45,697 nucleotides of DNA from Flavobacteriales bacterium (GTDB lineage: Bacteria; Bacteroidota; Bacteroidia; Flavobacteriales_D; Crocinitomicaceae). This document shows positions 9,443-15,110 of this stretch, piece after piece; position 1 is the first letter of the stretch, and each line of letters starts with the position of its first letter. The notes beneath the pieces were generated by a model. That model was given only the letters and a program-made list of their open reading frames with translations, was not told the origin of the DNA and ran no database searches. Location: assembly GCA_947476955.1 (NCBI GenBank), contig CANJSS010000004.1:1-45697 (forward strand). Direction: 5' to 3'. A program made the position numbers and the translations under genes.

Positions 9443-10165
9443 TTACTGATCAGAACTCGTTTCAAAAGTTGTAAAAGGATTGAAGCGATCCATTGTATTA
9501 ACCTCCTTCAACATACTATTTTCAACTCGTACCACTCGGCCAGGAAATTTCTCAACCATTGTCATATCGTGTGTTGCCATTAAAACTGCTGTTTTTTCTT
9601 CCTGAGCAATAGCCAATAAAAGGCGCATTATTTCCTGAGAAGTTTCCGGATCTAAATTTCCGGTTGGCTCATCCGCAAGAATTAATTCCGGCCTATTTAA
9701 TAATGCCCTTGCGATGGAAACACGTTGTTGCTCTCCACCGGAAAGAGCATGCGGCATTGCGTTTATTTTCTGTTCTACACCAACCAATTGCAAAACGTCT
9801 TTTGCGCGTTTCAGCATTAAATTAGAGTCTTTCCATCCCGTTGCTCCAAGAACAAATAGAAGGTTTTGAAGAACCGTTCGATCCGTCAATAGTTGAAAAT
9901 CTTGAAATACGATTCCAATTTTTCTGCGAAGCATTGGAATTTCTTTTTTGCTGAGTTTTCGTAAATCAAAACCGGCAACATTTCCTGTTCCTTCTGTTAA
10001 AATTAATTCTCCGTAGATTGTTTTAAGTAAGCTACTTTTCCCGCTGCCTGTTTTCCCGATGAGGTAAACAAACTCATTTACGTCCATTTCAAATTGCACC
10101 TCATTCAACACCAAGGCACGTTGCTGGTAGATTTTGGCGTTTTTTATCTGTATAACTTTTTCCAC
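9443..10165 (-). CDS. ftsE: Cell-division ABC transporter ATP-binding protein FtsE
   Basis: This 240-residue ABC ATPase has Walker A GKTGSGKSS (37-45), Q-loop VFQDFQLL (87-93), signature LSGGEQQR (141-148), Walker B LILADEP (161-167) and an H-loop histidine at 199. The sequence around LLTDRTVLQNLLFVL and ALLNRPELILADEPTGNLDP is characteristic of FtsE. FtsE works with the membrane protein FtsX to activate peptidoglycan hydrolases at division. No ftsX lies next to it. LolD or MacB-type ATPases are the alternative, but the FtsE-like length and the lack of a permease neighbour favour FtsE. Confidence 0.88.
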   Translation of the reverse strand: MEKVIQIKNAKIYQQRALVLNEVQFEMDVNEFVYLIGKTGSGKSSLLKTIYGELILTEGTGNVAGFDLRKLSKKEIPMLRRKIGIVFQDFQLLTDRTVLQNLLFVLGATGWKDSNLMLKRAKDVLQLVGVEQKINAMPHALSGGEQQRVSIARALLNRPELILADEPTGNLDPETSQEIMRLLLAIAQEEKTAVLMATHDMTMVEKFPGRVVRVENSMLKEVNTMDRFNPFTTFETSSDQ

Positions 10166-10244
10166 GGAATAAAATAATTTAGTGTAAAGGTGAAAAAATA
10201 CTCGTAAGTAATAGCGAAACGGTTGATAATAATCTTAACAGATT

Positions 10245-10267
10245 CACGTTTAAAACTTTTAAACGTG
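10245..10267. promoter_or_regulatory. 23-bp perfect palindrome in the ftsE/TPR divergent intergenic region
   Basis: The arm CACGTTTAAAA (10245-10255), one central C and the exact reverse complement TTTTAAACGTG (10257-10267) form an 11+1+11 palindrome. It lies 80 nt upstream of ftsE and 57 nt upstream of the TPR gene. It is AT-rich with no flanking U tract, so a dimeric repressor or activator site is more likely than a terminator. Confidence 0.55.
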
Positions 10268-10323
10268 CGCTCCATCTCAGAGCCGATGTGCCTTAATTTT
10301 ACTTGATTAAAAGCAATTGTATT

Positions 10324-13300
10324 ATGAAAAGATTTTTGGTTTTCCTGTTGATCTTCCTGCATTCTTTCACGTATTCCCAAACATCCGAGAAATACAACAG
10401 TGAATACGAAAATTTTTACCGCGGCGAAGAGTTGTTTGCCAAGGAACAATTTGCAGCTGCGCGAATTGAATTTAGAAGGTTTGCCGACGCATTCAATAAA
10501 CCAAATGACCCACTGTTTATAAAAGCATTGTATTATGAAGGATTGTCTGCATTGGAATTATTCAACAACGATGCTGTAGCGCTGTTGGAAGAATTTAATA
10601 AAAACTATCCGGAAAGTGTTTTTAAAAAAGACATCTTTTTTCGGCTTGGAAAATATTTTTACCAAAAGAAAGATTTTACCGAGGCTTTGGTTTGGCTCGA
10701 TAAATTGAAAGCTCAAGAGGTAGAACCAGAGAATAAAGAAGAATTCTATTTTAAGGTTGGCTATGCCAATTTTCAGGAAAATAAATTACCACCTGCTAAA
10801 AGTGCTTTTTATGAGGTAAAAAATGGAACTACGCAATATGCCGCGCCAGGTTTGTATTATTATTCTCACATTTCGTATATGGACAAATCCTACCAGACAG
10901 CTTTGGAGGGATTCTTGAAACTACAAACGGATGAAAACTTTTCGAAAGTAGTGCCGTATTATATTACCCAAATTTATTACCTACAGGGAAAATATACTGA
11001 AGTAACTAGTTATGCCTCAACGGCAATGGACTCTGGCAATGTTGTAAACAAAAATGACATGAACCATTTGGTTGGTGACGCTTACTATCGGATTGGAAAA
11101 TTTGATGAAGCTGTGCCTTTTTTGGAAGCATTTAATTTAAAGTCTAATACCACTCGCTTTGATGATTACCAGCTTGGTTTTGCATATTTAAAGAGCAAAG
11201 AATATAGCAAAGCAATTAAAATTCTTGACAAAGTTACCCGAGAAAAAGATAGTTTGGGGCAGGTTGCATTTTACCATATCGCAGAAGCATATTTAAAATT
11301 AAACAATCTTATTGCAGCTCGATCTGCATTTGAGGCCGCTTCCGAAAGTGATAAAAATGTAAAATTACAAGAAGACGCGTTGTATAATTATGCTGTATTA
11401 TCCTATAAATTGGATTTAAATCCATACGATGAAGCAGTTATTGCCTTGGAAAAATACTTGAATCGTTTTCCAAATTCAGAACGGAAAAATGATGTTTACC
11501 AGTACTTGGTCACCGTTTATTCTTCTACCAATAACTACGCGAAAGCGCTTGCCTCACTGGATAAATTGCCAAACAAGGATACAAAGTTAAAAACTGCCTA
11601 TCAACTGGTGGCGTTTAATCAAGGGGTTGAATTTTTCCAAAAAGGAGAATTGGCAAAAGCAATTGCTTCTTTTGAATTGGTGGAGAAATATCCAATCGAT
11701 GCCACCATAACTGGGAAAGCCAAGTTTTGGGCTTCAGATGCCAATTTCCGACTCAATAATTTAGATAAAGCTATAAAAGGATATAAGGAGTTTTTGGGAT
11801 TACCAGCAACGCTTTTGCAAGATTTGAAAATAGACGCCTATTATAATTTAGGATATGCCTATCTTAAAAAGGAAGACATTTCTCAGTCTTTGGATAATTT
11901 TACGATTTACTGTAGATCAGCGGTTAAAAACAAAAATAAATTAGCAGATGCAAACATGCGCGCTGCAGATGGTTATTATATTACCAAACAAAATGAAAAT
12001 GCCATAAAATATTACCAGGAAGTTTTAAAATTGAAATCGGGCTTCGAAGACCAAGCGCTATTTTATATGGCTAAAACGTATGGTTTTTCAGGAAAAGACG
12101 ATTTGAAAATCATAAATTTAGTCGACATCATTAACAATTATAAGCAATCGAAGTATACACTATTGTCTGTATATGAAGTAGCACTGTTGTATAAAGCAAA
12201 GAGCGAATACGACAAATCCATGCGTTACTTCAACCAAATTTTATCAGATTTTCCAACTTCTGAGCTTTTCGTTAGCTCAAAAGTAGAAATCGCAGATATT
12301 TACTATAAGAAATGGGAATACGCCAAAGCAGAATCGCAATACAAGCAGATTTTGGCTGAATATGGCGAAGACCGCATAATTTGTGAAAAATCTGTTCAAG
12401 GATTGGTGGATGTGTATGCCGCATTAGAACAACCCGAAAAAGCAAGTGCTTTGGCGGAGCAATATGCTTGTGCAAACATTTCCGTGGACCAACAGGAAGG
12501 ATTTTATTATACGCCTGCGTTGGATTCTTATGTTGACAGTTCTTATGCTGCAGCAATTCCGCAATTTGAAAAATACCTTGAACGTTTTCCATCGGGTAAA
12601 TTTTCAGCAGAAGCGACTTATTTTATTGCAAATTCTTATTTTGAAACAGGAAACAAGGAAAAGGCAATTGAAAACTATAAAAAAGCGCTTGAAGGACCAA
12701 ACAATGGCAATACAGAGTTTTCAGCATCTCGTGTCGCGCAGTATTTGTATAACAATGGCCAGTTTGAAGAGGCAATAGAATTTTACAGGCGCCTGGAAAA
12801 AGTTTCATCGAAACCTGCGGTTATTTTCAATGCTAAAATTGGCGCTATGCGTTGTAACTTCTTGCTGGAGGATTGGGCGAATGCTGGAGCCTACGCAAAG
12901 GGTGTTTTAGAAAGCAGCCAAATCAACAATACGATTCGCTTAGAAGCGGAATACGCAAAAGGAATGTCTAATTTTTACTTGAATAATTTCACCGAAGCGA
13001 AACTATCTCTAGAATGGATTGTGAAAAATTCTACTACCGTGATGGCAGCAGAAGCGAAATATTCATTGGCCGAAATGTATTACAAGCAGCAAGAATATGC
13101 TAAAGCAGACACAGAAATTCGAGCATTGATTAAAATGAAACCAACCTACAATTACTGGGTTGCAAAAGGTTTAATTTTGCAGGCGCGTATTTTGATTACA
13201 AAAGATGACCTTTTTCAAGCAGAGCAAACATTGATGTCTGTGATGGACCATTATTCCAACCAAGATGATGGAATAATTCTGGAAGCAGAAGAATTATATA

Positions 13301-13386
13301 ACGAGTTGATACAACTGAAAAGTAAGCCAAAAGCGATTGACCAAGAAGGCGAAACAGTTATTGATGTAAATGAAGGAGGAAAATAA
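10324..13386 (+). CDS. Large exported tetratricopeptide-repeat protein
   Basis: This protein of 1020 residues starts at the ATG at 10324 (MKRFLVFLLIFLHSFTYSQ, a Sec signal peptide ending in SYSQ). An in-frame TTG 21 nt upstream would break the signal peptide. The remainder consists of around 25 TPR/Sel1-like helical repeats, for example YYEGLSALELFNNDAVALLE, FYHIAEAYLKLNNLIAARSA and ATYFIANSYFETGNKEKAIE. Repeats of this kind resemble BamD/YbgF-type periplasmic scaffolds, but the protein is far longer. The barrel gene starts 3 nt after its stop, so the two are co-transcribed and probably interact. The function is unknown. Confidence 0.9.
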   Translation: MKRFLVFLLIFLHSFTYSQTSEKYNSEYENFYRGEELFAKEQFAAARIEFRRFADAFNKPNDPLFIKALYYEGLSALELFNNDAVALLEEFNKNYPESVFKKDIFFRLGKYFYQKKDFTEALVWLDKLKAQEVEPENKEEFYFKVGYANFQENKLPPAKSAFYEVKNGTTQYAAPGLYYYSHISYMDKSYQTALEGFLKLQTDENFSKVVPYYITQIYYLQGKYTEVTSYASTAMDSGNVVNKNDMNHLVGDAYYRIGKFDEAVPFLEAFNLKSNTTRFDDYQLGFAYLKSKEYSKAIKILDKVTREKDSLGQVAFYHIAEAYLKLNNLIAARSAFEAASESDKNVKLQEDALYNYAVLSYKLDLNPYDEAVIALEKYLNRFPNSERKNDVYQYLVTVYSSTNNYAKALASLDKLPNKDTKLKTAYQLVAFNQGVEFFQKGELAKAIASFELVEKYPIDATITGKAKFWASDANFRLNNLDKAIKGYKEFLGLPATLLQDLKIDAYYNLGYAYLKKEDISQSLDNFTIYCRSAVKNKNKLADANMRAADGYYITKQNENAIKYYQEVLKLKSGFEDQALFYMAKTYGFSGKDDLKIINLVDIINNYKQSKYTLLSVYEVALLYKAKSEYDKSMRYFNQILSDFPTSELFVSSKVEIADIYYKKWEYAKAESQYKQILAEYGEDRIICEKSVQGLVDVYAALEQPEKASALAEQYACANISVDQQEGFYYTPALDSYVDSSYAAAIPQFEKYLERFPSGKFSAEATYFIANSYFETGNKEKAIENYKKALEGPNNGNTEFSASRVAQYLYNNGQFEEAIEFYRRLEKVSSKPAVIFNAKIGAMRCNFLLEDWANAGAYAKGVLESSQINNTIRLEAEYAKGMSNFYLNNFTEAKLSLEWIVKNSTTVMAAEAKYSLAEMYYKQQEYAKADTEIRALIKMKPTYNYWVAKGLILQARILITKDDLFQAEQTLMSVMDHYSNQDDGIILEAEELYNELIQLKSKPKAIDQEGETVIDVNEGGK

Positions 13387-13388
13387 GC

Positions 13389-15110
13389 ATGAAAAAAATA
13401 CTAATTAGTAGTCTGTATATTCTTTTTGGTTCTCTTGCTTTTGGACAAGGAGGATCGGACGTTGTAACCATTGTAGGATTGGGGAACCGACAAGTTGAAC
13501 CGGCATACAGAATGACGGAAAACCCGAAGATTATTGACACCACGATTGCTAGCCCGGTGTCGGAATACCCACTATTGTTTTTGCAATATTCTACCAGTAT
13601 TGAATTAGATAAAATTAGCCCAGCAACCATAAAAACAGAACCAAAGTTGCTTCAGTTATACCAAACATATGTGAAACTTGGAGTTGGAACAGAATTAATG
13701 CCTTTGGGAGAAATTTATTTTGATTCAAAACGCGACCGAAAATTTTTATACGGTGCGCATGCGCAACATTTAAGTTCGTTCGGAAATTTTGAAAATTATG
13801 CGCCTGCGCAGTTCGATAGAACAAAAGTTGGATTATATGGTGCGTTGAATGAGAAAAGGTATTCACTCCGCTCGAATGTACATTACAATAACCAGGGATT
13901 GCACTATTACGGATGGAAAATTCCAACAGATTCCGTGAACCGCGATGAAACTGCTCAGCGCTTTCAAGATGTTGGCGGTTCGTTTAATTTTGCATCTCAT
14001 AAAAAAGATAGCGCCACCCTAAACTATACTATTGGCACGGAGTATTCTAATTATACGTCCAAAAAACCGTTATTAGATAGTCTATCCGATTGGCGCGCTA
14101 GCGAAAATTATTTTGCGCTGAAAACAAGCGGTTTCTATAAATATGGTAAGGAAATATTTGCTGCAGATTTTAATGTGCGTTATAATGGTTACAAATATGG
14201 AGTCGAATCCGATACGAATAGTTTTGCACTAGATTCTGGAATTGTGCGCAACAATACACTAATAAATCTGAAACCTACAATTTCAACTTTTTCAAAAGAC
14301 AACCGCTTTAAAGCGAAGATAGGAGTAGATATTGTTGTGGATGCGAATACCACGACCAAAGCACACATTTATCCAGTTGCGGAATTGAAATATTCCTTGT
14401 TCAATGATATTTTTATTCCTTATTTAGGATTAAGAGGCGGATTGAAACAAGTAACCTTTAAAACATTGACGCAAGAAAATGAATTTCTTTTAACCAATGT
14501 TATGTTGCGGAATGAGAGTACCGCAATTGATGCTTATTTTGGCTTTAAAGGAACACTGTCCAAGCGAATGAGTTTTAATTTGAGCGCAAGTTTTGCTCGC
14601 GTGAATGATAAAGCCCTTTTTGTTACTGACACAACTTTTTCAGTCGGTAATAAATTTAATGTCATTTATGACACCTTGAATCTCACAACGCTGGAAGGTT
14701 CATTATCGTATCAATTAAATGAAAAATTAAAGATCGATGCTATGGCACGGTATAATTCCTATTCTTTGTTGAATAATTCTTATGCATGGAATTTACCGCA
14801 ATGGAAAGCTGTCGTTAAAGGAAGTTATAACTTGTTTGATAAGTTTCTAGTGAATTTAGATTTAAATTTTGAAGGTGGAAGAAAAGCGTTAGTTTATGCA
14901 TCGGAGCAAGGGGTCACACTTGAAAACGGGCAGTATGCAAAAACACTTGGATTTATTGCTGATATTAATTTAGGCCTGGAATATAGATACAACAAGCGAA
15001 TTTCTGCTTTTATTCAAATGAATAACTTAGCATCGCAACGGTATAATCGTTGGTACAACCACCCTGTTCAAATCTTCCAATTTATGGGAGGAATTACGGC
15101 AAGATTTTAA
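13389..15110 (+). CDS. Predicted outer-membrane beta-barrel protein (TonB-receptor-like C-terminus)
   Basis: This 573-residue protein has a signal peptide (MKKILISSLYILFGSLAFGQ) and no plug domain that I can recognise. The body is rich in alternating amphipathic strands (for example ALNEKRYSLRSNVHYNNQGL, KIDAMARYNSYSLLNNSYAW and LGLEYRYNKRISAFIQMNN). It ends RYNRWYNHPVQIFQFMGGITARF. That resembles the final strands of TonB-dependent receptors, with a terminal aromatic residue as required by the BAM machinery. The length suggests a barrel of 16-22 strands. It is translated 3 nt after the large TPR protein, a pairing also seen in other Bacteroidota as far as I recall. The substrate is unknown. 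Confidence 0.83.
   Translation: MKKILISSLYILFGSLAFGQGGSDVVTIVGLGNRQVEPAYRMTENPKIIDTTIASPVSEYPLLFLQYSTSIELDKISPATIKTEPKLLQLYQTYVKLGVGTELMPLGEIYFDSKRDRKFLYGAHAQHLSSFGNFENYAPAQFDRTKVGLYGALNEKRYSLRSNVHYNNQGLHYYGWKIPTDSVNRDETAQRFQDVGGSFNFASHKKDSATLNYTIGTEYSNYTSKKPLLDSLSDWRASENYFALKTSGFYKYGKEIFAADFNVRYNGYKYGVESDTNSFALDSGIVRNNTLINLKPTISTFSKDNRFKAKIGVDIVVDANTTTKAHIYPVAELKYSLFNDIFIPYLGLRGGLKQVTFKTLTQENEFLLTNVMLRNESTAIDAYFGFKGTLSKRMSFNLSASFARVNDKALFVTDTTFSVGNKFNVIYDTLNLTTLEGSLSYQLNEKLKIDAMARYNSYSLLNNSYAWNLPQWKAVVKGSYNLFDKFLVNLDLNFEGGRKALVYASEQGVTLENGQYAKTLGFIADINLGLEYRYNKRISAFIQMNNLASQRYNRWYNHPVQIFQFMGGITARF

Follow-up and report, generated by a model that had tools for sequence, protein, structure and literature searches.

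The window analysed here, a stretch of 45,697 nucleotides from a Flavobacteriales bacterium of the Crocinitomicaceae, contains a short gap between two divergent genes, and the locus raises the question of whether one regulator controls both sides and at which site it would bind. To the left lies an ftsE-like ABC ATPase gene (9443..10165, minus strand), whose product scores 234.5 bits against TIGR02673, below the cut-off of 264.85. To the right lies the gene of a 1020-aa TPR protein (10324..13386, plus strand), followed in the same direction by that of a 573-aa protein (13389..15110, plus strand), which the initial annotation took for a barrel. The mechanical list of open reading frames starts the TPR gene at a TTG (10303), while homology and the position of the promoter favour the ATG at 10324. 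Searches of the PDB and of family collections gave a name to neither product of this TPR unit. The 573-aa protein has no sequence match in Pfam, NCBIfam or the PDB; the TPR protein has 24 PDB matches, one to CpoB and nearly all the rest to engineered TPR proteins or fusions. The YbgF and BamD models exceed their NCBIfam cut-offs, with scores of a kind that TPR repeats inflate.

The gap spans 158 nt between the GTG of ftsE (10165) and the ATG of the TPR gene (10324), in agreement with the initial annotation, and contains the feature that had drawn attention to it, a perfect 23-bp palindrome on neither strand in particular (10245..10267). It reads CACGTTTAAAA-C-TTTTAAACGTG, with arms of 11 nt that are 100% complementary. 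An intrinsic terminator had been thought unlikely, and the combination of hairpin and T-run that defines one is indeed absent at this site: the sequence after the right arm is CGCTCC, and the genes on either side point away from each other. The claim that the palindrome is longer than chance would allow holds for the gap, where arms of at least 11 nt arise with a frequency of 0.00075 in 20,000 Markov copies, and fails for a scan of the whole window, where the length is not exceptional (about 0.2 places expected per window length, 3 counted with spacers of 0–3, nested spacers being counted separately). A generic repeat can be set aside after a whole-genome search: the 11-bp arm has 7 copies in the 2.70-Mb genome, two of them the palindrome itself, against 6 for the pattern read backwards, so the arm does not belong to a repeat family. 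Its five remaining copies are spread over five contigs, and the perfect palindrome therefore occurs once in the assembly. A phage collection gave no match to positions 10100–10330.

Relatives were found through the TPR protein, which has a match in 39 of 40 genomes, the own genome included. At the 22 other loci of the genus in which the region is intact, only 1–4 of the seven outer pairs of the palindrome are kept (four in the nearest sister, at 95% protein identity), and the perfect palindrome is absent from every other genome examined. Its two arms fare differently. Each base of the left arm recurs in 14–22 of these 22 loci, with the first, third and sixth bases the most variable, and the CTTTT that follows is invariant, while the last seven bases of the palindrome are mostly lost. 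Conservation of the arms among relatives, set as a test at the outset, thus applies to the left arm and breaks down for the right, even in the nearest sister. This bears directly on the proposal that a dimeric regulator uses the palindrome itself as its operator. Its perfection and its rarity for such a gap speak for that proposal; yet none of the 22 same-genus loci keeps it, its inner stretch AAAACTTTT is retained because it is part of another, TTAACA-type element, and in most other families the inner stretch is not palindromic. We consider this reading very improbable, and as a conserved operator the palindrome was rejected on the lack of conservation of its right arm. To judge from these comparisons, the exact palindrome is a quirk of one genome, and half of it belongs to a conserved element; it probably arose when unconserved sequence beside that element chanced to complement the element's left part.

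The conserved element covers only positions 10245–10260 of the palindrome. Alignment and column counts delimit a genus-conserved block, WTWATCTTAACAGAWTCACGTTTAAAACTTTT, with some variable columns (10229..10260, plus strand), and within it the left arm and CTTTT form part of a deeply conserved promoter element at 10235–10260, TTAACA-N7-GTTTAAAACTTTT. With up to 3 mismatches allowed, the pattern TTAACAGANNNNNGTTTAAAACTTTT of the block occurs once in the own genome. A relaxed form of the block was rarer than its backward control in all eight genomes searched, and matches to the TPR-type element were not commoner than the backward control. Based on a logo with one sequence per family and on the geometry of the promoters, we propose as the regulator site an imperfect dyad, TTAAC-N8-GTTTA (10235..10252, no strand, centre 10243.5), which overlaps only the left arm of the palindrome and whose half-sites are themselves imperfect.

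One line of evidence for this element is its distance from the promoter of the TPR gene, whose -7 box, TAATTTTA (10294..10301, plus strand), lies 50.5 bp from the dyad centre. A search of 199 genomes of the order with the DNA pattern TTAACAGA-N5-GTT-N36..44-TAnnTTTA gave a match in 40. Most matches share one spacing and, among those checked, precede the TPR gene; some others looked like chance. For the class, regions upstream of the TPR gene were taken by protein homology, giving 84 loci in 48 families (one class-wide batch comprised 20 taken from class matches not given as loci, and L159 was left out of alignment A1). The rows of family f1 are biased, as they include loci found by the DNA pattern, and the 36 families from outside the order are free of this bias; the order-level sites were already known when the regular expressions were drawn up. 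AAC[AG]-N7-GT[TG] precedes a -7 box by exactly 43 or 44 nt in 31 of the 48 families (62 matches among the 84 loci, the two spacings summed), and in 24 of the 36 extra-order families, which were fetched by protein homology alone. The same pattern occurs in none of the 48 families at gaps of 39–42 and 45–49; the only stray gaps between 30 and 59 were 30, 35 and 38, with a single family in each case, and 50, with two families. A Markov null, which ignores the relatedness of the loci, gave a mean of 0.03 families and a maximum of 1. Compared with the first, a second pattern allows more at the third base and at the -7 box and less at the first two bases; it fits 33 families, while 35 fit either pattern and 13 of the 48 fit neither. 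Three A's (positions 17, 19 and 20) are invariant in the 33 second-pattern families even though the pattern leaves them free. The one-per-family logo reads TYAACA-N6-C-GTTRAWAACTT, with an unconserved spacer. All 33 one-per-family sites carry nAnnTTTR by construction, with T as the first base in 29 and A (24) or G (9) as the last, and a TTG in the window expected for a -33 box occurs in one of them. Across the TPR side, the dyad lies 50.5 or 51.5 bp from the box.

A comparable geometry is found on the other side of the gap. The -7-like box of ftsE, CACCTTTA (10185..10192, minus strand), is 51.5 bp from the same centre. Among 39 loci with a divergent ftsE, from 14 families and with 21 loci from the own family, 24 loci in six families have such a box 49.5–52.5 bp away (null mean 1.4, maximum 6). 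Another 60.5–64.5 bp range, about one helical turn farther, holds a box at 11 of the 39 loci in seven families, where the null covers the 49.5–52.5 range only and locus L164 is counted in both. At 14 of 53 loci no ftsE was found within the flank and the element still stands beside the TPR gene, so it is not merely the element of ftsE. In Flavobacterium psychrophilum, a promoter study places the -7 box TAnnTTTG at -12 to -5 (PMC9723704). With start sites inferred from the -7 boxes, the dyad centre would fall at about -62 for the TPR gene and about -63 for ftsE, and in the spacing tests for the TPR gene, ftsE and ftsK the dyad keeps a fixed helical phase to the promoters.

A fixed distance to the -7 box and the missing -33 box could also be expected if the element were a core-promoter contact for RNA polymerase, akin to an UP element or an extra sigma contact, without a separate regulator. 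This explanation is unlikely, since one dyad serves two divergent promoters near-equidistantly, with the ftsE side sometimes a turn farther, and since strong matches to the element are few in each genome. An ECF sigma promoter with AAC and CGT boxes was rejected on its spacing, which is too short, and parS, dif and Rex sites were compared and dropped.

The element recurs before a further division gene. FtsK was searched in 40 genomes already in the study, mostly ones with the TPR-side element, and 20 upstream regions of ftsK were picked by the FtsK domain, the criterion being a first flank that fell short of the ftsK start. Twelve of the 20 carry the element at a gap of 46 or 47, which is the same spacing counted from GTT, and none carries it at any other gap from 36 to 59; the null was 0 in 300 resamplings, with relatedness ignored. 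All ten regions of the window's family have it, the own genome included, and two of ten elsewhere, a count that rises to three of ten if a looser left half with C for the first A is allowed. Shorter ftsK flanks added the element at 8 of 30 loci, all eight from other families, which brings the totals to 20 of the 28 genomes examined and 10 of 18 outside the own family. In the window's family these sites typically read CTAACA-N6-TGTTTATAG with a TAnnTTCG box, and the own genome's copy (L389, G000:C53:13806-13874) has the -7 box TAACTTCG.

Given the spacing on both sides and the recurrence before ftsK, we favour, at a probability of roughly 75%, a model in which a single regulator site organises the 158-bp gap as a divergent promoter region, with the same site before ftsK marking a division regulon. 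A dimer, or two monomers on inverted half-sites, would bind the dyad centred at 10243.5 and, from about -62/-63, activate transcription of ftsE to the left and of the TPR unit to the right, substituting for the missing -33 box. The same site at the same spacing would act before ftsK and probably before a few other division, peptidoglycan and segregation genes, and the element could then be regarded as the mark of a division regulon in this class of Bacteroidota. That a protein binds here, and that it activates rather than represses, we infer; the conservation, the two-sided spacing and the recurrence before ftsK were observed. Against the regulon model count the 13 of 48 families that fit neither pattern and the presence of the ftsK element in just two of ten regions outside the window's family. 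The earlier idea of one regulator shared by ftsE and the TPR unit survives in altered form: a conserved dyad does lie near-equidistant from both -7 boxes, and before ftsK too, but the proposed site is this dyad rather than the palindrome, and the regulon would be wider. A single regulator probably controls the division genes that share the element. A further point against the model is that the promoter study of F. psychrophilum assigns a TPR-domain gene and an ABC-type ATPase gene to an ECF-type motif; their start sites are far apart, so that they are no single divergent pair, and homology to the genes of the window is not implied (PMC9723704).

Other candidate targets emerge from genome scans with two models, R1, built from the TPR sites, and R2, built from alignment A2. 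The A2 sites had been preselected by their spacing, so matches to R2 are no independent evidence of it. In the own genome, R1 has one strong match (E 3.9e-11), the next having an E-value of 0.097. Across the class, 172 of 247 genomes have a match at E-values up to 0.1, of which perhaps a tenth are chance, as E-values were computed per single genome and about one genome in ten passes at 0.1 by chance; secondary matches recur. Twenty of these were fetched as a selected set with low E-values, among the matches listed, and 11 of them precede division or envelope genes by annotation or resemblance, the other nine preceding other genes or lying in open frames. Among the 20, four lie before ftsK (one checked against Pfam here, two found in the separate FtsK-domain search), two before GH3 glycosidases and two before TPR-PD40 proteins (one of each checked against Pfam), and one each before a TPR protein, an N-acetylmuramoyl-L-alanine amidase and an OmpA protein. 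At least two secondary matches (L343 and L350) lie inside long open frames. Eleven secondary matches from ten genomes comprise seven before the genes of a Mur ligase, a DivIC (27.2 bits, below the cut-off of 28.9), a GyrB/ParE-type topoisomerase, a GH3 enzyme and three AsmA-like proteins, one of these in the own genome, and four without apparent meaning. The exact spacing test was passed by 18 of 23 secondary loci and failed by the DivIC, amidase, two TPR-PD40 and one transglutaminase-like sites. In genome G026, two secondary sites outscore the TPR site.

Several of these copies deserve mention in their own right. A weaker copy of the element precedes an AsmA-like gene of the own genome (L308, G000:C31:15032-15097), and such copies also precede similar genes in G018 and G021. 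In family f45, a match precedes the gene of a 460–498-aa protein in four genomes (L346, L347, L348 and L354), and the two of these proteins that were scanned (L346 and L354) have no Pfam match. In families f1 and f45, the element or a close match stands before a Transglut_core2 protein (L352 and L357).

Which factor would bind the dyad is a matter for which its half-sites give one lead. The consensus of the DnaA box is TTWTNCACA, and it is possible, as a tentative identification, that the regulator is DnaA, bound to two inverted DnaA-type boxes (TTWTNMACA) and linking the division genes to the initiation of replication. Read backwards, the right half gives TTWTNAAC in the majority of the TPR sites in the set; the ftsK sites L370, L376 and L384 fit TWTNCACA or TTWTNCAC at 8 of 8 positions in both halves; the window site matches the consensus at 6 and 7 of 8 positions in its two halves. 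Domain IV of DnaA reads GKDHATV in seven genomes of the class (L220–L226), against GRDHTTV in Escherichia coli, which makes a shifted box preference conceivable. Several observations pull the other way. Position 6 is mostly A in the TPR sites, where the DnaA consensus has C, and in the own family the left half of both TPR and ftsK sites fits at only 5–6 of 8 positions. A site with rigid spacing and dyad symmetry more typically belongs to a dimeric factor, and such a factor suits the rigid inverted arrangement better. In two stretches searched near skew minima, at most three boxes fall within 400 bp.

The resemblance to DnaA boxes also brings up the replication origin. In genome G002, the element at 275.7 kb lies 29 kb from the skew minimum of its contig (246.7 kb), as would suit an origin in the gap. 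In G123, by contrast, the element (3.289 Mb) and the minimum of the 400-kb stretch examined are about 277 kb apart, and in G026 the element, at 3.05 Mb, is inside a negative arm, the skew changing sign between 3.72 Mb and the start of the contig. Near-DnaA boxes do not form a cluster of three or more at the site; G123 has two, each with one mismatch, within 500 bp from 3,289,315. The gap as chromosomal origin is thus barely credible, and it was rejected on the GC skew in G123 and G026 and the want of clustered DnaA boxes. Near the skew minimum no convincing cluster of DnaA boxes was found. In G002:C21, a contig of 399.6 kb, the cumulative GC skew reaches its minimum near 246.7 kb, next to a gene that by eye looks ferritin-like, and this region is possibly the origin region, with weak box clusters. 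In Bacteroidota, oriC is reported to lie far from dnaA (PMC4755523).

Compared with known promoter systems, the arrangement is familiar in its parts. An nAnnTTTR box, as in Bacteroidota sigma-A promoters, stands on both sides of the dyad; the sigma-A box TAnnTTTG is here mostly replaced by TTTA at the TPR gene and by TTCG at the family's ftsK, and the -33 TTG is absent, the conserved feature at about -62 being the dyad. Class I activator sites, such as those of CRP in E. coli (TGTGA-N6-TCACA), lie near -61.5. The dyad resembles them in its position at about -62, in its helical phasing and in the weak or absent upstream core element, whereas its AACA-N6-NGTT points outward and one site serves two promoters. 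In Caulobacter, DnaA boxes occur in promoters of cell-cycle genes. The likeness there is that the half-sites resemble TTWTNCACA and that the targets include division and segregation genes; the differences are the strict inverted pair, the strict spacing and the A at position 6 in most sites. The F. psychrophilum promoter map distinguishes six sigma motifs, and the dyad is not described in the available part of it (PMC9723704). We found no description, in the open-licence literature searched, of a site shared by division genes in Bacteroidota.

An element common to ftsE, ftsK and an envelope TPR unit could serve as bait to isolate the regulator and points to candidate targets; the involvement of DnaA is directly testable. 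It is conceivable, if rather doubtful at present, that one factor, perhaps a DnaA of shifted preference, acts in much of the class on inverted boxes at about -62, activating ftsE, ftsK, the TPR unit and further genes of division, peptidoglycan and segregation. If this is true, division in these bacteria would be transcriptionally coupled to the initiation of replication.
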